Positions 2,218-51,789 of a DNA stretch of 64,000 nucleotides are shown here, piece by piece; position 1 is the first letter of the stretch; each line of letters starts with the position of its first letter. Below the pieces are notes generated by a model that saw nothing but the letters and a program-made list of their open reading frames with translations, did not search any database and was not told the origin of the DNA. The translations under genes were made by a program, and so were the position numbers. The DNA comes from Ianthella basta (Eukaryota > Porifera > Demospongiae > Verongiida > Ianthellidae), in the NCBI GenBank assembly GCA_964019415.1, contig OZ025887.1, positions 2,268,806-2,332,805 on the forward strand. Reading direction: 5' to 3'.

Positions 2218-2225
2218 TATATAAA
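2218..2225 (+). promoter_or_regulatory. TATA box of Speedy copy 1
   Basis: TATATAAA lies 60 bp upstream of the chosen ATG at 2285. A TCAGTG initiator-like site lies about 30 bp further on. The same arrangement precedes copies 2 (8368-8375), 3 (13018-13025), 5 (28328-28335, -), 7 (42880-42887, -), 8 (46608-46615, -) and 9 (51280-51287, -), and copy 6 has it near 33840. The expected start site falls downstream of the first ATG at 2236, which supports the later ATG as the true start. Confidence 0.6.
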
Positions 2226-2284
2226 GCACAAGGAGATGGACAACATGGTTGCAGTCAGTGCTAGTGTGTGTTGGAGAAGTGGAC

Positions 2285-3732
2285 ATGATATCGTTGGTCA
2301 GCCGTTTCAATGTGTCCGAGCCTCTGTCGAAGCGCTCTCGGTGCGTGTCAGCGGACGAGGACGACGCCACCGCAGCGCTGCCGCTGTACTCCTGCAGGTA
2401 AGGCTGACAAAGCACGGAAGACACACGTTTGTTCTAAGGATATCTCTCGTGTTGCATGTTACACGGAGCATTCACCCGTGTGCTTTGTCAAAACGCGCGC
2501 CGTATGCCTTTATCTCCTCCAGACTTCAGCAGTCGTTGGTTCCTCAAACATGTGGAGCGAGAGGAGGTGAACCCAAGGAGAAGCATGTTGGTTCGTACTT
2601 GGCTGCGTTCTTCCGTTTGTTGGGTGAGTCTGCAATTCACGGATACAATCCTAACAGTGTGTCAATCTGCGCAGCAATCAACAATCTGCGCAAATTTTGA
2701 TTGCTATTATTTCATTACTGCAGGAGATGGCCTGGTCCAGAATTTCTTGTGGATTGACAGTTGTGCTAAAATTGCTGACAAAGTAAGTCCATGTGTTTGC
2801 ATGTCCTGACCTGTGAGTGCCCTGTGGTCATACATGGCAGCACAGCACCTCCTCCATGGGCTCATGTCTCTCTGTTTCTCCCTCCACAGTACCTGCTTGC
2901 TATGGTGTATGTGTACTTCAGAAGGGCCAACCTGACACTGGATCAGTACACCAGAGTCAACTTCTTTGCAGCACTGTAAGTGGAAATGGTGATGAATGTG
3001 ATGAAGAGCCCACAACACACATGTGCACACAGAGTACAGCACTGTTTGTCAATGTGTGTCACTATTTGATGCTATAATTATCAGATTGTACAAGCATGCA
3101 GCTATGTATGTGTACAAGCTGTGACCCACTTGGTCATGTTGTGTGTGTAGGTACCTTGCCAATGACATGGAAGAAGATGAAGAAGAAGAGAAGTACGAGA
3201 TCTTCCCATGGGCTCTCGGCCTTCATTGGAGGACATCGTTCCCCTCCTTCCTAGCTCTCCGTGACCAGCTCTGGAAGAAGATGGATTACAGGACAGTTGT
3301 CAGTCGCAGAACATGTGAAGAGGTTTGTGCAGAGAGGGATATCAGAGAGAGTAGTGTGGTGTTGCTATGTGTGTTGTGTGAGCAGCTATGCATGTAGAGA
3401 TGGCTTTTGTGTGAGTTAGTAACTGTTTCTATCCATCCTTGAGCTCCACATACATACAACTGTTACACCACCTCCTTATGTATCCCTCAACATAGGTATT
3501 TAGGTTACTCCCTACTCACCCTGCCTGGTCCCGTGAGCGTAACCCCCACCACGGAGGTGCCCACAGAAACTACACACAGACTATCCCTACCTACGGCCGT
3601 TTGTCTCCAACCAAGTGCAGTGACTGCGACAACCTGCAAGCAGAAGTGAACAAGACGACATGTGCAACTGTTGAAAGAGACCTACTTGCAGAGCCAAGTG
3701 TGAAAGAGGCCTACTTGTGGAGCCAAGTGTGA
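2285..3732 (+). pseudogene. SPDY: Speedy/RINGO copy 1, C-terminally truncated
   Basis: Speedy/RINGO proteins are cyclin-unrelated activators of CDK1/CDK2 acting at G1/S and in meiotic maturation. Exons: 2285-2397, 2523-2623, 2724-2782, 2890-2975, 3151-3322, 3496-3732, all with GT/AG borders and matching phases. The RINGO core is intact over exons 3-5 ([44 protein letters not shown]), followed by the family [14 protein letters not shown] motif in exon 6. A 29-bp tandem duplication (3674-3702 / 3703-3731) shifts the frame and gives TGA at 3730-3732. A second lesion turns a Trp codon into TGA at 3879-3881. The product would be 255 aa, without the SCEWFT tail. Exon 3 also starts GDGLVQN instead of EDDLVQD. 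It is a pseudogene or a core-only protein. Confidence 0.85.
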
Positions 3733-4190
3733 TGCCAGTTGACTGTGGACTGCTCCACAAAGCTGAGGACAGGAACATGGCAGCCACAATGGAAGAAGAC
3801 ATCCTGTGTCAGGAGGTGACAATCGATGTCATTCCTGATTTTGACTTGTTGGATGAGATTGATTGCCAAACAAGCAAGTGAACGCAATCATGTGAGTGGT
3901 TCACTGACACAGATATGTCTAAGCCAAGCAAATGTGTCCCTTCATCACTGAACCCCTTCATTCCATCTCTGCAGTTCCCATCTTTGCAAGTGCTTTGGAC
4001 TTGCCTGAAGAATGATGAACTGACATTCCATTTCGGTGTTTGAGCATTCCATTTAAGCACATCTGAATGGATTATTTATATTTTATTGTACATGTCATCT
4101 CTGCTTATATTGCCCTTTAACTTATTCTGAGAGATAATTGTCTTTTGTCACATGAAACATGCTATTATAGTCATAACCATGACATTTAGC

Positions 4191-4980: not shown

Positions 4981-5430
4981 CTCAACTTGACTACAACTCA
5001 CAGTACTAGTGTGATCCTGTGTAGCTCTGCTGCACAAGAACAGAAGTGTGCTTAGTTAGCTACGCACTCACAGCTTAGCATACAGTAGAATGTAGTATTC
5101 ACTGCAGTCAACGACACTGCACAGTTAGCTCATTTGCATTACTTGATAACCCTGTATACTTGTGTGTGCTCAACATTCCACTCTCAGACTTGCTCAGTAC
5201 TACAAGCGTACCGGGAACCCATTTGGAACAAGGATAAAGTAGTTTGCAGACACAAGGCATGCACCTGTAGCGTACACTGTATAACAGATGGAGCTATAGA
5301 GCGCTTTAGATACTGATCATAATATATAGCAGACAGCAATGTATATACGGTAGACTGTAGTACGTGCATACTGCACATGTACATGTAAATGATGTTTACG
5401 CTTGCGCTGCTGTTGCGCAATGATTATAAA

Positions 5431-5492: not shown

Positions 5493-7524
5493 ATGTCCTT
5501 CTCTGCAGTCGAAGGTTCCTGCTCCCCCTGGATACAAGTGTCTGCTTTTAACGTTATTGGGGCGCAGTACCGTGGACTGGAGATCAGAGCGCGGAACGGA
5601 CACAGATGCACTAAGCCATGTCTGGTCTGGGCGACTGTAGCACTGTGCAGTGCGGCAGCTGCAACAGTCAGCACTGTAAGCATTGCATCGTGTGTCTACC
5701 GTATAATAGTCTTATCAATCATTGCATTCATTGGTGTCTATGGTTACAACTTATAAATAAATAAAACAGTATTATGCTATTGACCTTAGCCAGGATCTTC
5801 ACAGTCGAAACGTCTTGCCAATTGAGTTGCTCTTAATGCTACATGATTGCTCAGTGAAGTGTTCAGTTCCTCTTCAAGTGCACTGTACCTTAGTCATAAG
5901 CTTAGACCACACCATCAAGTAATCAACTGAATTGACATTATAATCATCATCATCACTATGGTGATCATCATCTTCATCATTAATGTTCAATTACATCATT
6001 AATTTATTAATTAAAATTTTCTTATTAATCATTCATTAATTTAAATTCATGCACATGATATGCTATGACTGTAACAGATGCATCATCTCTTTCTCCATTA
6101 ACCCATTAGCTATCATTTTACTCCATTGCATGTGCACTTTTACTCCATGTGCATGCACTGTTTCTGTTGTTGATCATCATTATCATCATCATAATTTTAT
6201 CTAAATAATCTCCATGCAGGAGGGAAATAATGAGGTGCTCAGAAATCTCCATGCAGGAGGTTGTTCTTTCTGTAGCTATTCCATTTTCTTCATCGGTTAT
6301 CCTCTTCCTCTTCCTTCCATGTCAGCATCCTATTCTCTTCTGGTTAGTCCATCTCTGCCAAGCCTTCTCTCCAGCTCAGTTAATTCCTTTGCAGTTTCTC
6401 CAGCGCCTCCTCTTGCTTTAGCTCACCTCTTCTAAGCATTACATTTGTCACCCTGCCCCCCCCCCCCCCCCCCCCCCCTTCCATTTTCTTCTCTACTATC
6501 ACCTTGATGTATTCATACCATTACCTGTGCAGTAGACTCCTCTTGTTTGTTCAGTGCCCATGTTTCACTTCCATGCACTAGCGTAGGTACCATTTTGGTG
6601 TTGTATACGCTCAGCTTCATCCTCCTCAGCTCCGTCTGCTTCCAAACCAGTTCCATTAACATCATGCATACCTACATAGCTGTTTCTACCTCATATCTGT
6701 GGCTGTATGAGAGCAGACAATGTGTCCCCTTGTGTGGGCCTGCATGACCATTCCTGAAATGATCCTGTGGCCAATTTGCAGCAGAAGTAACTTCTGGTGG
6801 ATCCTCACTGTCACATTCGCTGGTACCCACCTCCTCAGTGGTGGTTCTAAGGGGGATCCAGGGGTGCAAAAGAACCCCCGTTTGCTAGTCATATGAAGGA
6901 TATAGGGCAGTTAATAGACCAGATATAGGCATGGTGGTCATGCTTCAGGGGCACTGTGTTCACCTAGCTACTTTTGAACCCCCTTTCAGAAGCCCTAGAT
7001 CCGCCACCGCTCCTCAACTGTGTGTGTGTTTGTTGCACTACAGGGGCTAATGGTACAAACTGCCTCACTCGTTCTCCTGCTTCTCAGTGGATTAGGTCTT
7101 CTTGTTGAGAGCAGATCTGTCTACCAAGGTGAGTACACACCCTAACAGACACCAGATAGGGCCTCAGTCTTGAGAGGCACCTGGCTGCTGCTGCTGCTGC
7201 TGCTGCTGATGCTAGTGCTTTCCACCCTTTCCTTTCCAGAGACTGTCTTGTTCCTGCAGTCAGTTGGCATTCAAGTTAGTAAAGAGAACAGATTTGGACT
7301 CAAGTCTTGTTATTTTGTTCCATTGTCCATTATCAAAGATGTTGTCATCAATGAAACCATAAGCAAGGTGAGTGTGCTGTGAACACACTGCTCCTGGAAT
7401 GATTATGTAACATGTCCCCTTTTACACATGTACACACATCTCTGCATGTATACATAACACATAATGTACTCCCTCACCAAACACACATTAACACACTAAC
7501 AAATGCACTCACATGGACTCATGT

Positions 7525-7615
<91 letters not shown>

Positions 7616-7813: not shown

Positions 7814-7859
<46 letters not shown>

Positions 7860-7954: not shown

Positions 7955-8060
7955 CCTTGAATAATTAATTTCCAATATTATGTTGCAATGCTGCTGATGT
8001 CCTGTTGGGGAGTGGATGTACACTATGGCTTTGTGTACGGGGCAAGTGCACTGGTACCAC

Positions 8061-8131
8061 TAGTCTCGTACCCAGACCCACTTCCGGCCGCCATTTTATG
8101 GCGGCCGGAAGTGGGTCTGGGTACGAGACTA
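8061..8131. mobile_element. Near-perfect palindromic MITE, 71 bp
   Basis: TAGTCTCGTACCCAGACCCA... reads back as its complement around a TTTTA loop, with TA at both ends. The counterpart at 34084-34138 has lost 16 bp of the centre. Single ends of the same type occur at about 10645, 26030, 31610, 40580, 44330 and 49000 in the spacers. Confidence 0.75.
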
Positions 8132-8434
8132 TAGTACCACAGGCTGCTCTCCTGGCGTAAGGCTTCTCGAGTCTTGTGTGTAACGATTACAATCGGGACC
8201 AGGGCGGACAGTCTGGAGCCACATTGCGCCGGCCCACAAACAACGTATAAATTAAGTGTAGCGCATGTTTGTGCAATCAACTATTATTAAAAACGTTGCC
8301 TCTCTGTCTACGACAGTCTTCTCAGTAAACATCATCCCGTCGAGACAGGGGAGACCGTCTTGTCGGGTATATAAAGCACAGGGAGATGGATGACATGGTT
8401 GCAGTCAGTGCTAGCGTGTGTTGGAGAAGTGGAC

Positions 8435-10104
8435 ATGATGTTGATCAGCAGTTTCAATGTGTCCGAGCCTCTTTCGAAGCGCTCTCGGTGCGTGTCGGCG
8501 GACGAGGACGACGCCACCGCAGCGCTGCCGCTGTACTCCTGCAGGTAAGGCTGACGGAGCACGGAAGACACACACGTTTGTTCTAAGGATATCTCTCGTG
8601 TTGTATGTTACACGGAGCACTCAACAGTGTGCTTTGTCAAAACGCGCGCCCTATGCCTTTATCTCCTCCAGACTTCAGCAGTCGTTGGTTCCTCAAACAT
8701 GTGGGGCGAGAGAAGGTGAACCCAAGGAGAAGCATGTTGGATCGTACTTGGCTGCGTTCTTCCGTTTGTTGGGTAAGTCTGTGTGCGGTGGTAACAGCGT
8801 GTGCTCGCGAGGAATCATCTCATCATTAATGGCTAATCTTCCATTACCGCAGAAGATGACCTAGTCCAGGATTTCTTGTGGATTGACAGTTGTGCTAAAA
8901 TTGCTGACAAAGTAAGTCCATGTGTTTGCATGGCCTGACGTGTGAGCACCCTGTGGTCATACATGGCAGCATAGCACCTCCATGGGCTCATGTCTCTCTG
9001 TTTCTCCCTCCACAGTACCTGCTTGCTATGGTGTATGTGTACTTCAGAAGGGCCAACCTGACACTGGATCAGTACACCAGAGTCAACTTCTTTGCAGCAC
9101 TGTAAGTGGAAATGGTGATGAATGTGATGAAGAGCCCACAACACACATGTGCACACAGAGTACAGCACTGTTTGTCAATGTGTGTCACTATTTGATGCTA
9201 TAATTATCAGATTGTACGAGCATGCAGCTATGTATGTGTACAAGCTGTGACCCACTTGGTCATGTTGTGTGTGTAGGTACCTTGCCAATGACATGGAGGA
9301 AGATGAAGAAGAAGAGAAGTATGAGATCTTCCCGTGGGCTCTCGGCCTTCATTGGAGGACATTGTTCCCCTCCTTCCTAGCTCTCCGTGACCAGCTCTGG
9401 AAGAAGATGGATTACAGGGCAGTCGTCAGTCGCAGAACATGTGAAGAGGTTTGTGCAGAGAGGGATATCAGAGAGAGTAGTGTGGTGTTGCTATGTGTGT
9501 TGTGTGAGCAGCTATGCATGTAGAGATGGCTTTTGTGTGAGTTAGTAACTGTTTCCATTCATCCTTGAGCTTCACATACATACAACTGTTACTTCACCTC
9601 CTCATGTATCCCTCAACATAGGTATTTAGGTTACTCCCTACTCACCCTGCCTGGTCCCGTGAGCGTAACCCCCACCACGGAGGTGCCCACAGAAACTACA
9701 CACAGACTATCCCTACCTACGGCCGTTTGTCTCCAACCAAGTGCAGTGACTGCGACAATCTGCAAGCAGAAGGGAACAAGATGGCATGTGCAACTGTTGA
9801 AAGAGACCTACTTGCGGAGCCAAGTGTGATGCCAGTTGACTGTGGACTGCTCCACAAAGCTGAGGACAGGAACATGGCAGCCACAATGGAAGAAGACATC
9901 CTGTGTCAGGAGGTGACAATCGATGTCATTCCTGATTTTGACTTGTTGGATGAGATTGACTGCCAAACAAGCAAGTGGACGCAATCATGTGAGTGGTTCA
10001 CTGACACAGATATGTCTAAGCCAAGCAAATGTGTCCCTTCATCACTGAACCCTTCATTCCATCTCTGCAGTTCCCATCTTTGCAAGTGCTTTGGACTTGC
10101 CTGA
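8435..10104 (+). CDS. SPDY: Speedy/RINGO copy 2
   Basis: Exons 8435-8544, 8672-8772, 8853-8911, 9016-9101, 9277-9448, 9622-10104 give 336 aa with no stop. Start MMLISSFN; residues 1-37 are exon 1 with an acidic ADEDDAT patch. The RINGO core covers about 58-176: [54 protein letters not shown]. Exon 6 carries [14 protein letters not shown], a CxxC pair (CSDCDN) and the conserved SCEWFT tail, all of which have equivalents in vertebrate Speedy A. An extra Glu codon (MEEDIL) is present compared with most copies. Intron 2 is the GTGCGGTGGTAACAGCG type also found in copies 7-9. It follows PIGH in the same orientation. Confidence 0.9.
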
Positions 10105-13017
10105 AGAATGATGAACTGACATTCCATTTCTGTGTTTGAGCATTCTGTTTAAGCACATCTGAATGGATTATTTATGTTTTATTGTACATGTCACCTCTGT
10201 TTATATTGCCCTTTAACTTATTGAGACATATTTTCCTTTGTCACGTGAAACAGTGCCCACTGCATGTGTGTGTTCCCTTCGCCCCCTGTACATATTTTCA
10301 TTCTCTTTGTTGAATTTGATGAATTGTGGCATTTGTTGTGCTGACCTTGCATGATGGCAAACATGTTCTCATTAATGTTAATGGAGAATTAATGCATCAA
10401 TTGAGGTTCAGGTCATGTGCAATTCTCCAGTCTGTATCCAGTAGTACATCATGGGGGAATGTATGTTATGCAGCACTGAACTGTTATATGCACACATTGC
10501 CCTATTATACAGTGTGTGTATGTATGTCAGTGTATAACTGGATGGTGTTGGGCATCGTCCACATGCATAATGCATGCATGTACATAATTATACATAACAT
10601 TGCATGCCAAATGGTGTGCATGCAACACAACTGGATCATCATGTAGTCTCGTACCCAGACTCCATGCAACTGTCTGCTGGCCGTTTAATTGTGACATCAT
10701 GTGCAGATGGGAGGGACAATGAAAGTGGTCTGAGCTAGTATGTTCACTCTGACTGCTGCTGATGAATGTAAGCATGATTTAGTGTGAACAAACAGTATTA
10801 CATGCCTGTACAGAAAAGCCATATCTTGAAAATGTATGAACATGCTGGATGGGGAATTGAGGTATGCCTGTACAGTGGAACTTGTCTAAGATGGTCACTG
10901 GGCTAAACAGCTACCTCTCTAAAACAGCCAGCCTCCCTGGCCCCAAATAGCACTAAGAGCATTGTAATCTACCTCTGTAGAGCAACCACCTCTCTATAAA
11001 GGTCAGTTAGAACTGGCCCACAGGCGGTTGTCTTAGACAGGTTCCTCTGTTGTACACATGAAGTGTCATGTGTTGTCATGTCAATAGAAAGAAGATGCAG
11101 TATGACTGCCATTCACTAGCACATGCAGTAGTGTTACGTACATGTGTGTCACTAGCCTAGTTGGTGAACAGACTGCATGTTGGCGACATGGATGGGCAGC
11201 ACAATTAGCAGTGTTGTGAGAGGTGTAAGTGATTCATGTACCAATGACATGCCACTCACTTGTTGTGTAGCTACAGCGATTTCGTGATTTCTAGTCCCCA
11301 TTGACATTTGCACATTGCACTCAATCATGTGAGTAAAGTATTGGAACGATAGGGTCACACATGCTCAATCTACGTGCGAGCTTTTAATTCCAATGCTTTA
11401 CTCATGTGATCGAGTGCAACGCGCAAATGTCAATCAAGACTAGAATTCGTGAAACCACTGAAAATGTAAAATTACTGATATGCCACTCTTGTGTACACTA
11501 ATAGACGGCCAGAGTGCTGATACTTTATGAGTGTTGTGTTCATATACCCACCCACACTCCTGTTGACTCCTCATCAAGCAGGTTAGGAGTCCATAGTAAC
11601 TGTAGACTGTGTGCTACATTATCCCATTTCAGACAATGCACTGGCACTGAATGTGTGTATGACTTGGCTGGCATCACACTGTACTTGATGTACTAGAGAC
11701 ACAACACACCATTTGATGTGTGATGTGAGGCAAGCATGAGACTATACGTATGATAGATCCCGTTACCATGGTAATGAGCGTTCTATGCGATGTTTCTAAA
11801 TCTCGTAGACTTTCTCTTGTATTTCGCGCGGGATCTAAATCATTTAGATACCGGGTGTCTAAATCCCGTAGATCCCTGCAGCTGAAGAGAACTGCAGCTG
11901 TAATAACAATTGTGGCGCCATAACATACGATACGATGCACAGGTCGCCCGGCTTACTTGTTTCATCGATAAATAGGGTACAGCAACAATCCGGCTACAAA
12001 CCAGAGCCAAGAAATTGGAACTGCAGCTGGTTACAAGCTACGTGGGGAAACAGGCTTTGGTAGCTAATGTCTGAGCCGCCATCAGAGTGAGGTCAAATGT
12101 TCAAAGCAATGTGAACTGTGTGAGATTGTGAGGTGTGGCAATCCTGACACTGTCTTCAGTGTGTGCTGGAGTATACAATACAGTAACATACATGAGTGCG
12201 ATGTATGGAACGTAATTACGTTCAATAGCAATGCACATATTATCTATGTATATACCTCATTTGCAGTGTTATTACATGCACATTCATAGTATATATACTA
12301 CGTATGCATACTAATTGTTCTATGTATTTCCCAGACACAATAGTTATACCTGAGGGAGTGACAAAGCTACATGCTGTTGTCCTAAAGCCACTACTTTAAC
12401 TAAAGTCCACCAAATGAATGTACATGCATTATACAACTATGCATGCAAGCTACATTCACCTGTTTCTACACGCACTCGTGTATACATGCATGCACACACA
12501 TAATGTTGCAACTGCACATACACAAATCATGAAGTTACTCTGCTACTAAAATCTGCACTATTTAATACATGTATGATGCACTGTTGCATTTCAACACTGC
12601 ATTTCACCCAGATGAATGCTGCAAAGATGGTGTATCCTGTTGGGGGCTACTATATAGCTAGCTACCTATCAGCAGTGGTACATTGTGGCCTTAAGTATGC
12701 GGAGAAGCAGATGGTGTGTGTATGGGATGAGTGCAGTACCACAGACTGTAGTCCTTGCATGAATGCACTCTGTAGTGGATAGGGGACGGACAGTCTGGAG
12801 CCCACTGGACAGGCAGTACCGTAGTACTGTCCATGTAGGGGTGGTGCTACACGTGGATGTTAGTACACATGTTGAAGAACAATTGTGAAAAGCACATGTG
12901 ACATGTTTGTGCTTGCGTTGCCATTTTGTCTACGGCACTCTTCTGGCGCGCGAGACTATACGGCGCCCTTCTCAGTAAACATCATCCCGCCGAGACAGAG
13001 GAGGCCGTCTAGTCGGG
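10105..13017. repeat. Array spacer between Speedy copies 2 and 3
   Basis: No gene recognised. Modules in order: Speedy 3' flank; a conserved roughly 600-bp stretch (10230-10860) with a single TAGTCTCGTACCCAGAC end at 10645; pogo-like MITE about 10871-11054; fold-back element about 11289-11455; the 11510-11750 module; a unique block 11750-12055 (short TCTAAATCYCGTAGA repeats) replacing the module seen elsewhere; then 12190-12960, which mirrors 28870-30240 of the right arm. In that mirror the right arm carries a 640-bp insertion and this side is empty. It ends with half of the TAGTCTCGCGCG MITE at about 12945. Confidence 0.65.
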
Positions 13018-13084
13018 TATATAAAGCACAGGGAGATGGACGACATGGTTGCAGTCAGTGCTAGTGTGTGTTGGAGAAGTGGAC

Positions 13085-14755
13085 ATGATATCGTTGGTTA
13101 GTAGTTTCAATGTGTCCGAGCCTCTTTCGAAGCGCTCTCGGTGCGTGTCAGTGGACGAGGACAACGGCACCGCAGCGCTGCCGCTGTATTCCTGCAGGTA
13201 AGGCTGACGGAGGACGGAAGACACACACGGTTATTGTAAGGATAGCGCAGTTGTTGCATGTTACACGGAGCACTCACCCGTGTGCTTTGTCAAAACGCGC
13301 GCCGTATGTCTTTATCTCCTCCAGACTTCAGCAGTCGTTGATTCCTCAAACATGTGGGGCGAGAGAAGGTGAACCCAAGGAGAAGCATGTTGGTTCGCAC
13401 TTGGCTGCGTTCTTCCGTTTGTTGGGTGAGTCTGCAATTCACGGATACAATCCTAACAGTGTGTGCTTGCGAGACCAATCTGCGCAATTTTGATGGCTAT
13501 CTTTCCATTACTGCAGAAGATGACCTAGTCCAGGATTTCTTGTGGATTGACAGTTGTGCTAAAATTGCTGACAAAGTAAGTTCATGTGTTTGCATGGCCT
13601 GACGTGTGAGTGCCCTGTGGTCATACATGGCAGCATAGCACCTCCTCCATGGGCTCATGTCTCTCTGTTTCTCCCTCCACAGTACCTGCTTGCTATGGTG
13701 TATGTGTACTTCAGAAGGGCCAACCTGACACTGGATCAGTACACCAGAGTCAACTTCTTTGCAGCACTGTAAGTGGAAATGGTGATGAATGTGATGAAGA
13801 GCCCACAACACACATGTGCACACAGAGTACAGCACTGTTTGTCAATGTGTGTTACTATTTGATGCTATAATTATCAGATTGTACGAGCATGCAGCTATGT
13901 ATGTGTACAAGCTGTGACCCACTTGGTCATGTTGTGTGTGTAGGTACCTTGCCAATGACATGGAAGAAGATGAAGAAGAAGAGAAGTATGAGATCTTCCC
14001 ATGGGCTCTCGGCCTTCATTGGAGGACATCGTTCCCCTCCTTCCTAGCTCTCCGTGACCAGCTCTGGAAGAAGATGGATTACAGGGCAGTCGTCAGTCGC
14101 AGAACATGTGAAGAGGTTTGTGCAGAGAGGGATATCAATGAGTGTAGCAGTGCTTCTAAGTGTACACAGAGTGTGAACAGAGTCTTGTGGAGCTTGGCCA
14201 TTAGTGGTCGAGGTTTGTAGATACAGCTGTACTCTACCCCTTCACATACACCTCCTTATGTATCCCTCAACATAGGTATTTAGGTTACTCCCTACTCACC
14301 CTGCCTGGTCCCGTGAGCGTAACCCCCACCACGGAGGTGCCCACAGAAACTACACACCGACTATCCCTACCTACGGCCGTTTGTCTCCAACCGAGTGCAG
14401 TGACTGCGACAACCTGCGAGCAGAAGTGAACAAGACGGCATGTGCAACTGTTGAAAGAGACCTACTTGCAGAGCCAAGTGTGATGCCAGTTGACTGTGGA
14501 CTGCTCCACAAAGCTGAGGACAGGAACATGGCAGCCACAATGGAAGACATCCTGTGTCAAGAGGTGACAATCGATGTCATTCCTGATTTTGACTTGTTGG
14601 ATGAGATTGACTGCCAAACAAGCAAGTGGACGCAATCATGTGAGTGGTTCACTGACACAGATACGTCTAAGCCAAGCAAATGTGTCCCTTCATCACTGAA
14701 CCCTTCATTCCATCTCTGCAGTTCCCATCTTTGCAAGTGCTTTGGACTTGCCTGA
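13085..14755 (+). CDS. SPDY: Speedy/RINGO copy 3
   Basis: Exons 13085-13197, 13325-13425, 13517-13575, 13683-13768, 13944-14115, 14276-14755; 336 aa, frame intact. It uses the MISLVSSFN start and carries DEDNGT in exon 1 where other copies have DEDDAT. The RINGO core and the SCEWFT tail are unchanged. Introns 1 and 2 are the GGTTATTGTAAGGATAGCGC and TACAATCCTAACAGTG types. The sequence after the stop differs from most copies (ATTTATTCTGTGTACATATG) and resembles copy 4. TATA box at 13018-13025. Confidence 0.9.
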
Positions 14756-15079
14756 AGAATGATGAACTGACATTTCATTTCTGTGTTTCAGACCAATGGA
14801 GTGAATCTACTTTATTTATTCTGTGTACATATGCGTTATTTATTCTGTGTACATATGAGTAATTTATTCTAAATATCTGTTTTTATTGAACTTTAACTTA
14901 TTCAGAAACATTGGATGTACTGTTTTCAAATGGAACATGTCATTTTTTACACATTCCAATATTTATTTCGTAAAGTGTATGCATAGCCCTTTTCAAATTG
15001 GAAGTTGTGCATTGCAAGTTGTTGCAATTTGCAAGAAAATGTGCAGAATGCTGTTATGGCCGAATCTTTTGACGTAGCT
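14756..15079. other. Intergenic, 3' flank of copy 3
   Basis: AT-rich, with GATGTACTGTTTTCA shared only with copy 4 downstream (about 24235). No gene or structured element seen. It ends where the Helitron-derived block begins. Confidence 0.5.
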
Positions 15080-22329: not shown

Positions 22330-23905
22330 ATGATGTTGGTCAGCAGTTTCAATGTGTCCGAGCCCCTTTCGAAGCGCTCTCGGTGGGTGTCAGTGGACGA
22401 GGACGACGCCACCGCAGCGCTGCCGCTGTACTCCTGCAGGTAAGGCTGACGGAGGACGGAAGACACACACGGCCGTAGCAGACAGCGCTGGTTGTGCATG
22501 CTACACGAAACACTCACCCTTGTGCCTTCGTCTTTTTAGACTACAGCAGTCGTTGGTTCCCCAAACATGTGAGACCACCGGAGGAGGTGAACCCAAGGAG
22601 AAGCATGTTGGTTCGCACTTGGCTGCGTTCTTCCGTTTGTTGGGTAAGTCTGCCATTTACGGATACAATCCTAACAGTGTGTGCTTGCGAGACCAATCTG
22701 CGCAAATTTGATGGCTATCATTCCATTACTGCAGAAGATGACCTGGTCCAGGATTTCTTGTGGATTGACAGTTGTGCTAAAATTGCTGACAAAGTAAGTC
22801 CATGTGTTTGCATGGCCTAACCTGTGAGCACCCTGTGGTCATACATGGCAGCATAGCACCTCCTCCATGGGCTCATGTCTCTCTGTTTCTCCCTCCACAG
22901 TACCTGCTTGCTATGGTGTATGTGTACTTCAGAAGGGCCAACCTGACACTGGATCAGTACACCAGAGTCAACTTCTTTGCAGCACTGTAAGTGGAAATGG
23001 TGCTGAATGTGATGAAGAGCCCACAACACACATGTGCACACAGAGTACAGCACTGTTTGTCAATGTGTGTCACTATTTGATGCTATAATTATCAGATTGT
23101 GCAAGCATGCAGCTATGTATGTGTACAAGCTGTGACCCACTTGGTCATGTTGTGTGTGTAGGTACCTTGCCAATGACATGGAGGAAGATGAAGAAGAAGA
23201 GAAATACGAGATCTTCCCGTGGGCTCTCGGCCTTCATTGGAGGACATCGTTCCCCTCCTTCCTAGCTCTCCGTTACCAGCTCTGGAAGAAGATGGATTAC
23301 AGGGCAGTCGTCAGTCGCAGAACATGTGAAGAGGTTTGTGTAGAGAGGGATATCAATGAGTGTAGCAGTGCTTCTAAGTGTACACAGAGTGTGAACAGAG
23401 TCTTGTGGAGTTTGGCCATTAGTGTTTGAGCTTCACATACATACAACTGTTACTCCACCTCCTTATGTATCCCTCAACATAGGTATTTAGGTTACTTCCT
23501 ACTCACCCTGCCTGGTCCCGTGAGCGTAACTCTCACCACGGAGGTGCCCACAGAAACTACACACAGACTATCCCTACCTACGGCCGTTTGTCTCCAACCA
23601 AGTGCAGTGACTGCGACAACCTGCGAGCAGAAGTGAACAAGACGTCATGTGCAACTGTTGAAAGAGACCTACTTGCAGAGCCAAGTGTGATGCCAGTTGA
23701 CTGTGGACTGCTCCACAAAGCTGAGGACAGGAACATGGCAGCCACAATGGAAGACATCCTGTGTCAAGAGGTGACAATCGATGTCATTCCTGATTTTGAC
23801 TTGTTGGATGAGATTGACTGCCAAACAAGCAAGTGGACACAATCATGTGAGTGGTTCACTGACACAGATATGTCTGAGCCACTGACTGTGCATGTGGTGC
23901 TGTGA
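22330..23905 (+). CDS. SPDY: Speedy/RINGO copy 4, altered promoter and C-terminus
   Basis: Exons 22330-22439, 22540-22643, 22735-22793, 22901-22986, 23162-23333, 23483-23905; 317 aa. The core is present but exon 5 reads LRYQLW, changing the otherwise invariant Asp of LRDQLW to Tyr. Exon 2 has CETTGGGEP and one extra codon. The usual TATATAAA leader is absent; CCCTATAAAA at about 22270 could serve. Homology to other copies starts only at about 22322. After [13 protein letters not shown] an insertion of about 165 bp (about 23877-24045, ending TAGTCTCGCATGCGC) replaces the tail with LTVHVVL and a stop. It is the most divergent copy, either an older paralog or a decaying gene. Confidence 0.8.
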
Positions 23906-28890: not shown

Positions 28891-29349
28891 TTGTTCTTCA
28901 ACATGTGTACTAACATCCACGTGTAGCACCACCCCTACATGGACAGTGCTACGGTACTGCCTGTCCAGTGGGCTCCAGACTGTCCGTCCCCTATCCACTA
29001 CAGAGTGCATTCATGCAAGGACTACAGTCTGTGGTACTGCACTCATCCCATACACACACCATCTGCTTCTCCGCATACGTAAGGCCACAATGTACCACTG
29101 CTGATAGGTAGCTAGCTATATAGTAGCCCCCAACAGGATACACCATCTTTGCAGCATTCATCTGGGTGAAATGCAGTGTTGAAATGCAACAGTGCATCAT
29201 ACATGTATTAAATAGTGCAGATTTTAGTAACAGAGTAACTTCATGATTTGTGTATGTGCAGTTGCAACATTATGTGTGTGCATGCATGTATACATGAGTG
29301 CGTGTAGAAACAGGTGAATGTAGCTTGCATGCATAGTTGTATAATGCAT

Positions 29350-32111: not shown

Positions 32112-33780
32112 TCAGGCAAGTCCAAAGCACTTGCAAAGATGGGAACTGCAGAGATGGAATGAAGGGTTAAGTGATGAAGGGACACATTTGCTTGGCTTAG
32201 ACATATCTGTGTCAGTGAACCACTCACATGATTGCGTCCACTTGCTTGTTTGGCAGTCAATCTCATCCAACAAGTCAAAATCAGGAATGACATCGATTGT
32301 CACCTCCTGACACAGGATGTCTTCCATTGTGGCTGCCATGTTCCTGTCCTCAGCTTTGTGGAGCAGTCCACAGTCAACTGGCATCACACTTGGCTCCGCA
32401 AGTAGGTCTCTTTCAACAGTTGCACATGCCGTCTTGTTCCCTTCTGCTTGCAGGTTGTCGCAGTCACTGCACTTGGTTGGAGACAAACAGCCGTAGGTAG
32501 GGATAGTCTGTGTGTAGTTTCTGTGGGCACCTCCGTGGTGGGGGTTACGCTCACGGGACCAGGCAGGGTGAGTAGGGAGTAACCTAAATACCTATGTTGA
32601 GGGATACATAAGGAGGTGGAGTAGCAGTTGTATGTATGTGGAGCTCAAGGATGAATGGAAACAGTTACTAACTCACACAAAAGCCATCTCTACATGCATA
32701 GCTGCTCACACAACACACATAGCAACACCATACTACTCTCTCTGATATCCATCTCTGCACAAACCTCTTCACATGTTCTGCGACTGACGACTGCCCTGTA
32801 ATCCATCTTCTTCCAGAGCTGGTCACGGAGAGCTAGGAAGGAGGGGAACGATGTCCTCCAATGAAGGCCGAGAGCCCATGGGAAGATCTCGTACTTCTCT
32901 TCTTCTTCATCTTCCTCCATGTCATTGGCAAGGTACCTACACACACAACATGACCAAGTGGGTCACAGCTTGTACACATACATAGCTGCATGCTCGTACA
33001 ATCTGATAATTATAGCATCAAATAGTGACACACATTGACAAACAGTGCTGTACTCTGTGTGCACATGTGTGTTGTGGGCTCTTCATCACATTCATCACCA
33101 TTTCCACTTACAGTGCTGCAAAGAAGTTGACTCTGGTGTACTGATCCAGTGTCAGGTTGGCCCTTCTGAAGTACACATACACCATAGCAAGCAGGTACTG
33201 TGGAGGGAGAAACAGAGAGACATGAGCCCATGGAGGAGGTGCTATGCTGCCATGTATGACCACAGGGCACTCACACGTCAGGCCATGCAAACACATGAAC
33301 TTACTTTGTCAGCAATTTTAGCACAACTGTCAATCCACAAGAAATTCTGGACTAAGTCATCTTCTGCAGTAATGGAAGAATTTGCGCAGATTGGTCTCGC
33401 AAGCACACACTGTTAGGATTGTATCCGTAAATGGCAGACTCACCCAACAAACGGAAGAACGCAGCCAAGTGCGATTCAACATGCATCTCCTTGGGTTCAC
33501 CTTCTCTCGCCCCGCATGTTTGAGGAACCAACGACTGCTGAAGTCTGGAGGAGATAAAGGCATACGGCGCGCGTTTTGACAAAGCACACTGTTGAGTGCT
33601 CCGTGCAGCATGCACAACTGCGCTATCCTTACAATAACCGTGTGTGTCTTCCGTGCTCCGTCAGCCTTACCTGCAGGAATACAGCGGCAGCGCTGCGGTG
33701 CCGTCGTCCTCGTCCGCTGACACGCACCGAGAGCGCTTCGAAAGGGGCTCGGACACATTGAAACTGCTGATCAACATCAT
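32112..33780 (-). CDS. SPDY: Speedy/RINGO copy 6
   Basis: Exons 33780-33671, 33544-33444, 33363-33305, 33197-33112, 32936-32765, 32591-32112; 335 aa, frame intact. Start MMLISSFN. Exon 2 reads [13 protein letters not shown], with two replacements relative to [13 protein letters not shown]. Core and SCEWFT tail are intact. It is the positional mirror of copy 2, yet introns 1 and 2 are the types found in copy 3, a mismatch that suggests conversion. It lies just downstream of the right PIGH copy. Confidence 0.9.
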
Positions 33781-34286: not shown

Positions 34287-36244
<1,958 letters not shown>

Positions 36245-37125: not shown

Positions 37126-39948
37126 TCACTTCCCATTCAGACACACTAAGTAAACCTGCAATTGGTGTATGCAATGCTTAGCAGGAATTAAGTATTCAGT
37201 GTAGTCAAACTTTAGTGACTTGTCCTTTCTGCGTAGTGACCGGGTTCTCCTGATCTGGCAGTTCTCATCCAAGGTACTAGGCCCATCACAGAAGAGCCCA
37301 AATGCCGCACAAGCTAGTTTTCTAGCTAGACCACGTGGACTGGGTAGTTCGAAAACGACTGGTCCATACGTCTCTGGTTCATTGCCAAAGAAGCCCACAG
37401 TAACACATACCTCAAACTTCAAGCTACTGAAGAGACGTGACTCCACACTCCAGGCCACTTCCTGCAAGTCAATGATGGAGCCTATGAATGAGGCAATCAC
37501 TGAACCCAGTCTGGAGAATAAACTGAAGTCCTCAGGGATCTCAATGACGTATCTGTCTAACTCAGCCACAGCATTTTCCAGCCACTCCTGTGTCTCGCCT
37601 TCAAACACCTCAGCCTCAACAAGGATTACTAGGAGATCCTTCACAAACTCTACCGCTTTATTCCATAGAATAGCTGCCTGTTCTAAAAGCCACTTGGCAC
37701 CCTCTTGAATGAAATAGCATGCTACATTGGACAGATAGCATGTGACTGATGGATATTTAAAACAGCAGTCATGGCTGTGAAATCCTAAACCTTCTCTGTC
37801 ATCAACAAACAGACAAACATCACTGCTGGCACATACTGAGGAAAGAAGAAACAGTACAGCATCTAATATATGCAACATCTCATAGCAATTAAAAGCCTTA
37901 GAGTAGTGTGAAAAGCAACTCAGACACTCATTGCAGTCTTACATCTACATTGGAACAGTTACTGCAGTCTCTCGATTTGCTCAATCCTCTCTATTATGCA
38001 ATGAAACATGGTAGTAAGTAGATTGAATTGATGGTGTATGCAGTGGTGGGGTTAGCTAATGCAGCCATCCCATTTTCTGCCAGTGTGGATGGTGAATGCA
38101 CAAGCCACAAAATGTATGTCAAATGTCCAGCTTCCATTTGCCAGTTAGATCAAACTAACACTCCAAGCAGGCCCTTGCATGCCTCATCCATGTTGTTGTT
38201 ACTGGTAAGCACATGGCAATGTTTGAATTCACAGACAATAAGGAGCAACGTACCAGCAACAGCAACAAAGAAGAGGTGACAGGCACTCTATATTGTCAGG
38301 ATTGTTCTAGAGCAAGAAAGGTGCAGCCACATGGGTGGAAAATGAGATGGCTATGCTTATACCGTAATACTGTGCATGGGGAGGGGGTGGGGGTGGTATG
38401 CACATCCTTTCAAACAGATTGGAATTTTGCAGAACAAACAATATGCAGCCTCACCTGAACAATCTTTATCAGCAGGGCACCATTCATTTAGACTGTCTGC
38501 AGCAGCTTGCAGATCGAAGTAACTAGAACGTTCTTCTGCCTTCCCCTTCTCCACATCCATATCTGCAGCATTTACTGCATCTACTGCACCTTGGTGTTGC
38601 TGCTTCTTTAGCTCTACATAATCTATTTGTTCTCCTGCCACTTCTTCTACATACTCCACTCTACCTCGGAAAAAACTGTTCCCAGCTTCTTCAATCGTTT
38701 TTTTCAAAGTAGGTCTGACGTAGCCAGACACCCTGTAGCCAAGGTTGGCAAAGTCACCTACATCGTAGTTGGCTTCAAATTCCAAATGAACCTCCAATAT
38801 TCCCCACAGCCGGCCATCCAGAGACAAAAAGAAATGGGAATTGTCAACTACCATTGTTCCCTGCAGACCAAGACCAAGGACTTCCACGTAACCAGAAATG
38901 TTGACTGTTGCCACTGGAGGGAATGTTGAAATATCATAGAAAGCATAAAAGTATGGACCCATTCTGGTATCATACCGTGAGGCAGACATTTGCACAAGGC
39001 CATACGCAAGCTCAACAGGTTCCAAGACTGCAGCAATGCTCATTGATTCCAGACAGTTGTCATGAATTTCACCATAAATTTCATAGCCCATGATGCTGAC
39101 TGTTCCCCTGAAGTACCAGCCTGGTGGGATTTCAATGTTATAGTAACTGATGTACACTTCATCCTCAGCCCAGGACAGAGTGAAGCCATTTGGAAAACCA
39201 CTTACAAGTATCACATCTGGCCAGTTCTGGGTATCAATGCAGTAATAGCCCATGATCCCTCCAAAGGTAAAATTACCAGCAACATCAAGGTACATGAAGC
39301 TAGGCTGTATGCCAAAGGCCGCTGTGATTTTAAGCCTATCTTCAGGACCTGTGCAGACTCTGTCTCCTGGGTAAAAGGTCACCGAGAGTGCAAAACCGGA
39401 CATCTTTGGCTCCTTTATGTCAATACTGACAAACAGGTAGAAGTCACATATGGAGAATGTGTCCGTGACATCCACACAAATTTCAGCTGCAGCGGTCAGT
39501 TCCAAGACACGGTCTGGAAGTATGAGTGCTATTTCTCCAAACAGGGTTAGCTCAGGGTCAACAAAAACTACAGTCATACTCAGTGCAATGGTAACTTCAA
39601 TTGCTGGTGGTTCTTCAGAGAAGTCAACTCCAACTTCAGTTTGGAACTGTAGGCCAGTGAAACTGTACGTTCCAAAGTCAAAGTCTGATAGGCTAAATGT
39701 GATGGTTACAGCCAACGCAGCACTGACACCTTCAAAGTCAGCAAATGACAACTTCTGCTTCGTTCTGTTCGTTCAGATGGCAAAACTGTTGCATCACTAC
39801 GATGCAGGCTTCGATCGGGCTCTAGATTTAGTGCGTTTTGACGACATAGTGGAGGGCAAGTAGGTTCGGGAAGCAGGGCAGATGGGTCCACATTAAGTGC
39901 AAACTGAACATTGACTTCCAGTGTAAAGTAGAATGCATCGCCAAACAA
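37126..39948 (-). pseudogene. Large unidentified secreted-type protein gene, 5'-truncated
   Basis: Two large exons join in phase: about 39758-38455 (ends WCPADKDCS) and 37835 to about 37126 (continues VCASSDVCLFVDD), together about 670 codons. The first is rich in alternating hydrophobic residues (FALSVTFYPGDRVC, VILVSGFPNGFTLSW, YNIEIPPGWYFRGTVSIMGY), as in an extracellular beta-sandwich protein. The second has a Cys-rich start (DCCFKYPSVTCY) and a helical stretch. I recognise no family. An in-frame stop lies just upstream of 39758. About 39770-39948 holds another open stretch (FYFTLEVNVQFALNV) in a different frame, perhaps a separate exon. At 39950 spacer repeat sequence cuts the gene, so the N-terminus and signal peptide are missing. 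Downstream exons near 36.95 kb are uncertain. Confidence 0.6.
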
Positions 39949-41129: not shown

Positions 41130-42820
41130 TCAGGCAAGTCCAAAGCACTTGCAAAGATGGGAACTGCAGAGATGGAATGAAGGGTTCAGTGATGAAGGGA
41201 CACATTTGCTTGGCTTAGACGTATCTGTGTCAGTGAACCACTCACATGATTGCGTCCACTTGCTTGTTTGGCAGTCAATCTCATCCAACAAGTCAAAATC
41301 AGGAATGACATTGATTGTCACCTCCTGACACAGGATGCCTTCCATTGTGGCTGCCATGTTCCTGTCCTCAGCTTTGTGGAGCAGTCCACAGTCAACTGGC
41401 ATCACACTTGGCTCCGCAAGTAGGTCTCTTTCAACAGTTGCACATGCCTTCTTGTTCCCTTCTGCTCGCAGGTTGTTGCAGTCACTGCACTCGGTTGGAG
41501 ACAAACGGCCGTAGGTAGGGATAGTCGGTGTGTAGTTTCTGTGGGCACCTCCGTGGTGGGGGTTACGCTCACGGGACCAGGCAGGGTGAGTAGGGAGTAA
41601 CCTAAATACCTATGTTGAGGGATACATAAGGAGGTGGAGTAACAGTTGTATGTATGTGAAGCTCAAGGATGAATGGAAACAGTTACTACGTAACTCACAC
41701 AAAAGCCATCTCTACATGCATAGCTGCTCACACAACACACATAGCAACACCACACTACTCTCTCTGATATCCCTCTCTACACAAACCTCTTCACATGTTC
41801 TGTGACTGACAACTGCCCTGTAATCCATCTTCTTCCAGAGCTGGTCACGGAGAGCTAGGAAGGAGGGGAACGATGTCCTCCAATGAAGGCCGAGAGCCCA
41901 CGGGAAGATCTCGTACTTCTCTTCTTCTTCATCTTCCTCCATGTCATTGGCAAGGTACCTACACACACACAACATGACCAAGTGGGTCACAGCTTGTACA
42001 CATACATAGCTGCATGCTCGTACAATCTGATAATTATAGCATCAAAATTAATAGTGACACACATTGACAAACAGTGCTGTATTCTGTGTGCACATGTGTG
42101 TTGTGTGCTCTTTATCACATTCATCACCATTTCCACTTACAGTGCTGCAAAGAAGTTGACTCTGGTGTACTGATCCAGTGTCAGGTTGGCCCTTCTGAAG
42201 TACACATACACCATAGCAAGCAGGTACTGTGGAGGGAGAAACAGAGAGACATGAGCCCATGGAGGAGGTGCTATGCTGCCATGTATGACCACAGGGCACT
42301 CACAGGTCAGGCCATGCAAATACATGGACTTACTTTGTCAGCAATTTTAGCACAACTGTCAATCCACAAGAAATTCTGGACTAGGTCATCTTCTGCGGTA
42401 ATGGAATAATAGCTATTAATGAGATGATTCCTCGCGAGCGGACATGATGTTGGCTCGCTGTTACCACCGCACACAGACTCACCCAACAAACGGAAGAACG
42501 CAGCCAAGTACGATCCAACATGCTTCTCCTTGGGTTCACCTTCTCTCGCCCCGCATGATTGAGGAACCAACGACTGCTGAAGTCTGGAGGAGATAAAGGC
42601 ATACGGCGCGTGTTTTGACAAAGCACACGGGTGAGTGCTCCGTGCAACATGCAACACGAGAGATATCCTTACAATAACCGTATGTGTCTTCCGTGCTCCG
42701 TCAGCCTTACCTGCAGGAATACAGCGGCAGCGCTGCGGTGGCGTCGTCCTCGTCCGCTGACACGCACCGAGAGCGCTTCGAAAGAGGCTCGGACACATTG
42801 AAACTGCTGACCAACATCAT
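41130..42820 (-). CDS. SPDY: Speedy/RINGO copy 7
   Basis: Exons 42820-42711, 42583-42483, 42392-42334, 42226-42141, 41958-41787, 41609-41130; 335 aa, frame intact. Exon 6 differs slightly ([28 protein letters not shown]). Intron 2 is the copy 2/8/9 type with extra GGACATGATGTTGGCTCGC. Intron 1 is a hybrid of the two common types. An 84-92-bp class palindromic MITE (42967-43058) lies upstream. TATA box at 42880-42887. Confidence 0.9.
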
Positions 42821-44878: not shown

Positions 44879-44879
44879 T

Positions 44880-46548
44880 TCAGGCAAGTCCAAAGCACTT
44901 GCAAAGATGGGAACTGCAGAGATGGAATGAAGGGTTAAGTGATGAAGGGACACATTTGCTTGGCTTAGACATATCTGTGTCAGTGAACCACTCACATGAT
45001 TGCGTCCACTTGCTTGTTTGGCAGTCAATCTCATCCAACAAGTCAAAATCAGGAATGACATCGATTGTCACCTCCTGACACAGGATGTCTTCCATTGTGG
45101 CTGCCATGTTCCTGTCCTCAGCTTTGTGGAGCAGTCCACAGTCAACTGGCATCACACTTGGCTCCGCAAGTAGGTCTCTTTCAACAGTTGCACATGCCTT
45201 CTTGTTCCCTTCTGCTCGCAGGTTGTTGCAGTCACTGCACTCGGTTGGAGACAAACGGCCGTAGGTAGGGATAGTCTGTGTGTAGTTTCTGTGGGCACCT
45301 CCGTGGTGAGGGTTACGCTCACGGGACCAGGCAGGGTGAGTAGGGAGTAACCTAAATACCTATGTTGAGGGATACATAAGGAGGTGGAGTAGCAGTTGTA
45401 TGTATGTGAAGCTCAAGGATGAATGGAAACAGTTACTAACTCACACAAAAGCCATCTCTACATGCATAGCTGCTCACACAACACACATAGCAACACCACA
45501 CTACTCTCTCTGATATCCCTCTCTGTACAAACCTCTTCACATGTTCTGCGACTGACGACTGCCCTGTAATCCATCTTCTTCCAGAGCTGGTCACGGAGAG
45601 CTAGGAAGGAGGGGAACGATGTCCTCCAATGAAGGCCGAGAGCCCACGGGAAGATCTCGTACTTCTCTTCTTCTTCATCTTCCTCCATGTCATTGGCAAG
45701 GTACCTACACACACACAACATGACCAAGTGGGTCACAGCTTGTACACATACATAGCTGCATGCTTGCACAATCTGATAATTATAGCATCAAATAGTGACA
45801 CACATTGACAAACAGTGCTGTACTCTGTGTGCACATGTGTGTTGTGGGCTCTTCATCACATTCATCACCATTTCCACTTACAGTGCTGCAAAGAAGTTGA
45901 CTCTGGTGTACTGATCCAGTGTCAGGTTGGCCCTTCTGAAGTACACATACACCATAGCAAGCAGGTACTGTGGAGGGAGAAACAGAGAGACATGAGCCCA
46001 TGGAGGAGGTGCTATGCTGCCATGTATGACCACAGGGCACTCACACGTCAGGCCATGCAAACACATGGACTTACTTTGTCAGCAATTTTAGCACAACTGT
46101 CAATCCACAAGAAATTCTGGACCAGGTCATCTTCTGCGGTAATGGAATAATAGCTATTAATGAGATGATTCCTCGCGAGCACACGCTGTTACCACCGCAC
46201 ACAGACTCACCCAACAAACGGAAGAACGCAGCCAAGTACGATCCAACATGCTTCTCCTTGGGTTCACCTTCTCTCGCCCCGCATGTTTGAGGAACCAACG
46301 ACTGCTGAAGTCTGGAGGAGATAAAGGCAGACGGCGCGCGTTTTGACAAAGCACACGGGTGAGTGCTCCGTGCAACATGCAACACGAGAGATATCCTTAC
46401 AATAACCGTATGTGTCTTCCGTGCTCCGTCAGCCTTACCTGCAGGAATACAGCGGCAGCGCTGCGGTGGCGTCGTCCTCGTCCGCTGACACGCACCGAGA
46501 GCGCTTCGAAAGAGGCTCGGACACATTGAAACTGCTGATCAACATCAT
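44880..46548 (-). CDS. SPDY: Speedy/RINGO copy 8
   Basis: Exons 46548-46439, 46311-46211, 46133-46075, 45967-45882, 45704-45533, 45359-44880; 335 aa, frame intact, all RINGO motifs present. It is near-identical to copy 9, from which it is offset by exactly 4670 bp over exons 3-6, so these two are the youngest tandem pair. Exon 6 has CSDCNN and KKACATV as in copy 7. Intron 1 is the hybrid type shared with copy 7. Confidence 0.9.
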
Positions 46549-49548: not shown

Positions 49549-49549
49549 T

Positions 49550-51220
49550 TCAGGCAAGTCCAAAGCACTTGCAAAGATGGGAACTGCAGAGATGGAATGA
49601 AGGGTTAAGTGATGAAGGGACACATTTGCTTGGCTTAGACATATCTGTGTCAGTGAACCACTCACATGATTGCGTCCACTTGCTTGTTTGGCAGTCAATC
49701 TCATCCAACAAGTCAAAATCAGGAATGACATCGATTGTCACCTCCTGACACAGGATGTCTTCCATTGTGGCTGCCATGTTCCTGTCCTCAGCTTTGTGGA
49801 GCAGTCCACAGTCAACTGGCATCACACTTGGCTCCGCAAGTAGGTCTCTTTCAACAGTTGCACATGCCGTCTTGTTCCCTTCTGCTCGCAGGTTGTTGCA
49901 GTCACTGCACTCGGTTGGAGACAAACGGCCGTAGGTAGGGATAGTCTGTGTGTAGTTTCTGTGGGCACCTCCGTGGTGGGGGTTACGCTCACGGGACCAG
50001 GCAGGGTGAGTAGGGAGTAACCTAAATACCTATGTTGAGGGATACATAAGGAGGTGGAGTAACAGTTGTATGTATGTGAAGCTCAAGGATGAATGGAAAC
50101 AGTTACTAACTCACACAAAAGCCATCTCTACATGCATAGCTGCTCACACAACACACATAGCAACACCACACTACTCTCTCTGATATCCCTCTCTGTACAA
50201 ACCTCTTCACATGTTCTGCGACTGACGACTGCCCTGTAATCCATCTTCTTCCAGAGCTGGTCACGGAGAGCTAGGAAGGAGGGGAACGATGTCCTCCAAT
50301 GAAGGCCGAGAGCCCACGGGAAGATCTCGTACTTCTCTTCTTCTTCATCTTCCTCCATGTCATTGGCAAGGTACCTACACACACACAACATGACCAAGTG
50401 GGTCACAGCTTGTACACATACATAGCTGCATGCTTGCACAATCTGATAATTATAGCATCAAATAGTGACACACATTGACAAACAGTGCTGTACTCTGTGT
50501 GCACATGTGTGTTGTGGGCTCTTCATCACATTCATCACCATTTCCACTTACAGTGCTGCAAAGAAGTTGACTCTGGTGTACTGATCCAGTGTCAGGTTGG
50601 CCCTTCTGAAGTACACATACACCATAGCAAGCAGGTACTGTGGAGGGAGAAACAGAGAGACATGAGCCCATGGAGGAGGTGCTATGCTGCCATGTATGAC
50701 CACAGGGCACTCACACGTCAGGCCATGCAAACACATGGACTTACTTTGTCAGCAATTTTAGCACAACTGTCAATCCACAAGAAATTCTGGACCAGGTCAT
50801 CTTCTGCAGTAATGGAATAATAGCTATTAATGATGAGATGATTCCTCGCGAGCACACGCTGTTACCACCGCACACAGACTCACCCAACAAACGGAAGAAC
50901 GCAGCCAAGTACGATCCAACATGCTTCTCCTTGGGTTCACCTTCTCTCGCCCCGCATGTTTGAGGATCCAACGACTGCTGAAGTCTGGAGGAGATAAAGG
51001 CAGACGGCGCGCGTTTTGACAAAGCACACGGGTGAGTGCTCCGTGCAACATGCACAACTGCGCTATCCTTACAATAACCGTGTGTGTCTTTCGTGCGCCG
51101 TCAGCCTTACCTGCAGAAATACAGCGGCAGCGCTGCGGTGGCGTCGTCCTCGTCCGCTGACACGCACCGAGAGCGCTTCGAAAGGGGCTCGGACACATTG
51201 AAACTGCTGACCAACATCAT
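49550..51220 (-). CDS. SPDY: Speedy/RINGO copy 9
   Basis: Exons 51220-51111, 50984-50884, 50803-50745, 50637-50552, 50374-50203, 50029-49550; 335 aa, frame intact. Differences from copy 8 are few: YFC for YSC at the end of exon 1, SLDPQ for SLVPQ in exon 2. Intron 1 is the GGATAGCGCAGTTG type, unlike copy 8. TATA box at 51280-51287; a 91-bp palindromic MITE lies at 51367-51457. It is the right-most copy; unique sequence starts about 52.4 kb. Confidence 0.9.
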
Positions 51221-51789
51221 GTCCACTTTTCCAACACACACTAGCACTGACTGCAATCATGTCATCCATCTCCCTGTGCTTTATATACCCGACAAGACGG
51301 CCTTCTCGGATCCGACTCCTCTGTCTCGGCGGGATGATGTTTAGTGAGCATGAGAAGGGTGCCGTATAGTGTCGCGTGCCAGCCGTCTACATGAACCAGA
51401 GGCGCCGTTCCTTGCGCAATTGCGCAATAGGGAAAATAGGGCTGGCGCGCGAGACTATGCAGACTAGATGCCTGCAGAGTGTTGTCTTGTGCATGCCAAT
51501 ATCTGACACGATGGACATGCTGATGAGTACTGTGCATTGCAGCACTCATGTATGTTACTGTATTGTATACTCCAGCACACAATGTACTGACCACTGTAGA
51601 CAGTGTCAGGATTGTCACACCTCACAACCTCACACAGTTCACATTGCTTTGAACATTTGACCTCACTTTGATGGCGGCTCAGACATGTAAGTTTACAATA
51701 CACACAGATGTGAGATCAAATCTTCAAAGAGTGTTGTGAGTAACAGTTGATTGATGTTCTTGCCAACCACTTTACAGCTGCTTTGTCTG

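Follow-up and report, generated by a model that had tools for sequence, protein, structure and literature searches.

The window analysed here is a 64,000-bp stretch of the Ianthella basta genome (C20:2268806-2332805), and the genome that was searched is the 209-Mb assembly of 96 contigs. Nucleotide searches with the six exons of the first copy, c1, located nine full six-exon sets of a Speedy/RINGO gene between 2285 and 51220, four on the plus strand and five on the minus strand (Table 1). Exon by exon, these searches recovered the nine copies in two opposing blocks that a preliminary description of this DNA had reported, as well as the seven complete frames of 335-336 codons it had counted among them. 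The splice sites of the nine copies were canonical throughout (90/90; GT donors 45/45, AG acceptors 45/45). Processed retrocopies were ruled out, as the copies retain their introns.

In addition to the array already described, three related loci were found beyond the window. A Pfam Spy1 search of the genome gave 24 exon matches that grouped into 12 loci, namely the nine copies of the window, a broken copy just upstream (c0), a copy on contig C8, and a divergent paralog on the same contig as the array. An exon-4 DNA search of the genome led to the same 12 places; further diverged Speedy copies could be missed, because both searches score best candidates only. The homology of the C8 copy with the array was restricted to ~2.28 kb, ending on both sides close to the Speedy gene itself. 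When the C8 copy is counted, the full-length frames total eight.

Table 1 Features of the array and related loci. Positions are those of the window unless a contig is named; for c1-c9 the ATG lies at the first base of plus-strand copies and at the last base of minus-strand copies.
Feature	Position	Strand	Remarks
c1, Speedy copy, six exons	2285..3732	+	Frame of 255 aa, ended by a 29-bp insertion in exon 6; G at 72 and 74
c2, Speedy copy	8435..10104	+	Complete frame, 336 aa
c3, Speedy copy	13085..14755	+	Complete frame, 336 aa; 5' half with c5, 3' half with c4
c4, Speedy copy	22330..23905	+	Altered C-terminus (317 aa); D158Y; 5' flank unlike others
c5, Speedy copy	26584..28268	-	Complete frame, 336 aa; clusters by 5' flank with c3
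c6, Speedy copy	32112..33780	-	Complete frame, 335 aa; clusters by 5' flank with c2 and c0
c7, Speedy copy	41130..42820	-	Complete frame, 335 aa
c8, Speedy copy	44880..46548	-	Complete frame, 335 aa
c9, Speedy copy	49550..51220	-	Complete frame, 335 aa
Four 140-bp direct repeats	28332..28892		98% match; start at c5 promoter
Left-arm segment	4190..4905	+	97.6% identity with 37592-36878; read as what remains of the 3' part of gene X or of an adjoining gene
Arm segment with c2	8042..10446		95.5% identical to 34157-31775 (c6), inverted
Arm segment with c3	12424..14791		Inverted matches 29349-28752 (99.0%) and 28472-26548 (94.3%, c5)
PIG-H domain match in duplicon	7242..7379 (C20:2276047-2276184)	+	Between c1 and c2
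PIG-H domain match in inverted block	34620..34757 (C20:2303425-2303562)	-	Beside c6
Partial gene X copy	38360..39772	-	Matches residues 787-1257 of the 1257-aa frame at 97% identity
Gene X, complete	C20:2256099-2259869		1257-aa open frame, left end
CWF19L2-like gene	56381-59160		CwfJ domains; right flank; single-copy in genome by C-terminal exon
c0, broken Speedy copy	C20:2267 kb		Just upstream of window; lacks last 37 bases of exon 4 and following donor
C8 Speedy copy	C8:4882106-4884385		Intron-bearing; complete frame, 335 aa
Divergent Speedy paralog	C20:2219218-2220893		281 aa; ~50 kb upstream

Four motifs had been given as common to all copies, which proved slightly too strong. A 17-residue motif was found in nine of nine window copies, whereas each of the other three was found in eight: a 12-residue motif, where c4 reads LRYQLW; RERNPHHGG, where c4 reads RERNSHHGG; and SCEWFT, which lies outside the frame of c1. 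Because c1 and c4 show changes at conserved sites and altered frames, the functional copies in the window are likely seven rather than nine.

A TATATAA element begins 67 bases 5' of the ATG in 10 of 11 copies, and c4 has another, TATAAA. The segment upstream of c5 has itself been multiplied, since the 140-bp repeats begin at the c5 promoter. By eye, upstream ATGs in another frame precede the start in exon 1 in most copies (2200-2310 of the window and equivalent positions); their membership of the transcript depends on the start site.

The c5 protein had a single Pfam match, Spy1 (E 7.4e-57; 191.8 bits against a cut-off of 25; residues 65-192). Against solved sequences it had two matches, the Speedy protein A chains of 5uq1 and 7e34 (~225 bits, E ~1e-65, residues 64-204). 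On these matches membership in the Speedy/RINGO family is secure, and the resemblance to vertebrate Speedy A that had been noticed in the motifs is far beyond chance. In Spy1, D97 and E135 are described as anchoring the CDK2 activation loop and D136 as mimicking the T160 phosphate (PMC6170502). Numbered via the 7e34 chain, which starts at residue 61 (PMC8155084), these residues correspond to D90, E128 and D129 of the array copies. All three were invariant in 10 of 10 aligned proteins, and their codons lie outside the 67 variable codons at which the copies differ.

The same residues were compared with the 170 best listed homologs from two protein searches that had 418 and 881 matches: D90 was D in 170/170, E128 was E in 170/170, and D129 was D in 169/170. 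Position 158, which is Y in c4 and c0, was D in 169 of the 170, and positions 72 and 74, both G in c1, were acidic in 167 and 166 of them, respectively. A pair of cysteines (C218 and C221) follows the Speedy box, WF beyond residue 200 occurred in 32 of 120 homologs, and the stretch N-terminal to the box was poorly conserved in the alignment. The queries of the protein-database searches were c5, a five-sequence alignment, and CWF19L2.

Palindromic arrangement of the duplicon

The copies form an imperfect palindrome of a duplicon with the order X-PIGH-Speedy-Speedy, which is newly recognised here. Among inverted blocks longer than 500 bp, c2 matched c6 at 95.5%, c3 matched c5 at 94-99%, and the c1 side matched c7-c9 at 92-93%. 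Pieces of gene X and PIGH lie in matching order across the inverted blocks, and on the left side the order X piece-PIGH-Speedy occurs again. The PIG-H domain had three matches genome-wide, every one beside a Speedy copy. The frame of gene X had no Pfam match. Relatives of gene X with 20-39% identity were seen on C17 (several, clustered), C18, C20, C21, C23, and C3, many of them in frames of ~1090-1200 aa.

It should be noted that copies were paired across the palindrome by block order and by their 5' flanks (groups c0/c2/c6, c3/c5, and c7/c8/c9); opposite copies are not mutually closest by overall identity. By that measure c2 is slightly closer to c7-c9 (96.1-96.3%) and to c5 (95.9%) than to c6 (95.5%), and c1 is closest to c5 (95.7%), compared with 92-93% for c7-c9. 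Later conversion could have caused this mismatch between palindrome partners. Many nodes of the copy trees had support below 50.

Between the left and right flanks of the array, the only shared sequence was one match of 129 bp and another of 84 bp. For the CWF19L2-like gene of the right flank, two database proteins were 90% identical, and a minisatellite with a 37-bp unit in ~21 copies lies at 53055-53831. The interval between c3 and c4 (15757-18373 and 19764-21795) contains frames with Pif1 2B and OTU domains, with the PIF1 model itself below its cut-off; we read these frames as Helitron-like. Two reverse-transcriptase frames on the minus strand were also seen in this interval.

Selection, proposed gene conversion and probable origin of the copies

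Among 11 copies, mean pairwise dN/dS was 0.37 over the whole frame; by region it was 0.16 for the Speedy box, 0.41 for the N-terminal part, and 0.66 for the C-terminal part. A random-mutation neutrality test was applied to the eight complete copies, leaving out c0, c1, and c4, with P values uncorrected for multiple tests. The result was not significant for the whole frame (N=32, S=21, expected N 37.5, P=0.072) or for the N-terminal part (P=0.25), and the C-terminal third looked neutral (N=14, S=5, expected N 13.7, P=0.64). The Speedy box gave N=4 and S=7 with an expected N of 7.5 (P=0.030, uncorrected), and P=0.087 when c1 and c4 were added. The signal of purifying selection is modest, being weak and seen in the Speedy box only, and selection on the activator domain is plausible.

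A rival account is a non-adaptive amplicon, in which segmental duplicates drift and become homogenised and one or a few of them would be enough for the organism; it overlaps on structure with the account that we prefer and differs on benefit. The near-neutral counts of the C-terminal part agree with it, as do the breaks or conserved-site changes in c0, c1, and c4 and the Pif1-type helicase, OTU-domain, and reverse-transcriptase fragments between c3 and c4. Furthermore, nothing marks Speedy as the target of the amplification, because the amplified segments also took in PIGH and pieces of gene X. However, the eight full-length frames (C8 copy included), the splice sites kept at all 90 places in the window copies, and the Speedy-box dN/dS of 0.16 speak against this account. 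We regard the non-adaptive account as a credible possibility that falls short of probable.

Pairwise differences among the copies were 1.0-8.4%, with 1.0-3.8% in the right block and 4.6-7.9% in the left block. Exon 4 had no variable column out of 86 among the 11 array-type copies; it was identical in 10 of them, and c0 retains 49 of the 86 bases. Variable columns elsewhere numbered 17/113 in exon 1, 16/101 in exon 2, 5/59 in exon 3, 10/172 in exon 5, and 30/436 in exon 6 (first 436 of 480 bases), 78/881 in total. With columns taken as independent, the chance of an invariant exon 4 was 3e-4 at the pooled rate and 3e-3 at the rate of exons 5-6. Introns 3 and 4 vary little (11/177 columns in intron 4), and introns 1, 2, and 5 far more.

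Exon 4 of the divergent paralog was identical to that of the array at 83 of 86 bases (97%). Over the compared codons, the paralog and c5 were 96.4% identical in exon 4 with a pS of 0.10, compared with 58-68% identity and a pS of 0.60-1.02 in three other coding segments. At exon 4 the blastn match was 130 bp long in 8 of 11 copies, and thus reaches 44 bases into the introns; it was 128 bp in c7, 110 bp in the C8 copy, and 64 bp in c0. Since exon 4 is near-identical in the array and in a paralog whose other segments are so far diverged, the sequences suggest exon-sized interlocus gene conversion as the simplest reading of the exon-4 pattern. Within the array, the partner of c3 changed from c5 in the 5' half (support 76) to c4 in the 3' half (support 100). 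A run-length conversion test was discarded, as clustered intron differences break its assumption.

Selection at the nucleotide level, through a splicing or regulatory code, would be another way to keep exon 4 identical. The low variation of intron 4 and the good conservation in homologs of part of the protein encoded by exon 4 are in line with such a constraint. However, it fits poorly with an identity to the paralog that is far higher in exon 4 than in the three other segments compared, with synonymous change that is so much lower there, and with matches that extend into the introns in most copies, and we consider it doubtful as a replacement for conversion.

An assembly artefact, in which two diverged haplotypes of a shorter array were joined inverted, is very unlikely from these data. 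In its favour, sponges can be highly heterozygous, the opposite blocks are collinear, inverted, and ~92-99% identical, and the right-block copies are mutually closer than the left-block copies, but the copies differ by up to 8.4%, the left-block copies are as diverged from each other as across blocks, another copy lies on a separate contig (C8), and the unduplicated flanks, the single-copy CWF19L2 gene, and gene X, of which there is one full-length copy and a fragment in the right block, also led us to reject whole-block haplotype duplication as the main reading.

The array is a real feature, in which the inverted architecture and the pattern at exon 4 stand out. The account we hold to be probable is a lineage-specific amplification of a Speedy A-type gene through tandem and inverted duplication with interlocus conversion, yielding predicted CDK1/2 activators that probably act in germ cells. 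As to the order of events, we infer that a gene X-PIGH-Speedy-Speedy duplicon was first duplicated in tandem and that most of the product was then duplicated in inverted orientation, giving the imperfect palindrome around 15-26 kb, with c2 opposite c6, c3 opposite c5, and the c1 side opposite c7-c9. The copies c7, c8, and c9 would have arisen as an additional series in tandem, and a single copy of gene size would have reached another contig. Interlocus gene conversion would have moved sequence between copies, with the clearest case in exon 4; this exon would also have passed between the array and the old divergent paralog.

Predicted activity and relatives of the array genes

Human Speedy A2 is reported to bind and activate CDK1/2 without T-loop phosphorylation (PMC1262692). 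By analogy, the complete copies are most likely CDK1/2 activators of the Speedy A type; like human Speedy A, their proteins would bind CDK1/2 and activate it with no need for a phosphorylated activation loop. A meiotic role of Speedy A is described in mammals (PMC4820962; PMC8155084), including a role in tethering to meiotic telomeres and SUN1 (PMC8155084), and with mammals as the model the complete copies would probably be used in germ cells, in meiosis. Expression, germline use, and any dosage benefit of the copies are putative.

A bolder proposal is a sponge germline amplicon, a palindrome that gene conversion maintains and in which many copies of a meiotic CDK activator are retained, perhaps through an advantage of dose in germ cells or gametes (selfish or dosage selection). 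Palindromic testis-gene amplicons exist as a comparison, and the array would be convergent with them and with primate SPDYE duplicons; we rate this proposal as rather unlikely. Should the copies prove to be expressed, an early-branching animal and primates would have amplified a meiotic CDK activator independently of each other, and the repeated multiplication of Speedy genes would become a question testable by comparison. The exon-sized near-identity with a far-diverged paralog would illustrate interlocus gene conversion clearly in a natural setting.

Amplification of the Speedy family is known in primates, where the SPDYE5 family is named among the focal points of recurrent duplication (PMC3790853). 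SPDYE4 is reported as duplicated in macaques (PMC7241854), and Speedy gene number as varying across mammals (PMC5090057). Among the titles listed in our literature searches on Speedy in sponges, none concerned a sponge Speedy gene, although a published description may still exist. The primate SPDYE family resembles the array in that Speedy genes were multiplied in segmental duplications with interlocus conversion. In contrast to SPDYE, the array belongs to a different lineage, is Speedy A-like, and is mostly local and arranged in inverted blocks.

Among the matches listed in the c5 search, the top two were P0001, then P0002 (Em0019g299a), and P0028 ranked 28. The profile search was also led by P0001, P0002, and P0028, which were part of its query. 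The name Em0019g299a follows the gene numbering of Ephydatia muelleri (PMC7385117). These three proteins were among the best matches listed, with 47-59% identity and a coverage of 57-72% of the query. In an unrooted tree of 20 sequences, which included a mammalian Speedy A and no SPDYE protein, the array, the paralog, P0001, P0002, and P0028 fell outside the eumetazoan clade (support 98, and 93 without exon 4). Taken with the homologs, this placement points to a sponge. Within that sampling, the position of the array speaks against descent from the same duplication as primate SPDYE. The earlier proposal of an independent expansion in this lineage holds as far as the placement outside the eumetazoan clade goes; its independence from SPDYE was judged in a tree without SPDYE proteins.

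The Speedy box of vertebrate Speedy A (SPDYA/Spy1/RINGO A) is ~60% identical to that of the array, and the three CDK2-contact residues and the paired cysteines after the box are common to both. The C-terminal SCEWFT of the array is similar to the SM(D/E)WFT string that several vertebrate proteins of the Speedy A type carry. Unlike vertebrate Speedy A, the array has many near-identical copies and a longer C-terminal tail with an L-L-D-E-I-D motif. By eye, this tail motif resembles LLDEID in P0001, LLDQID in P0002, and ILDEID in P0028.
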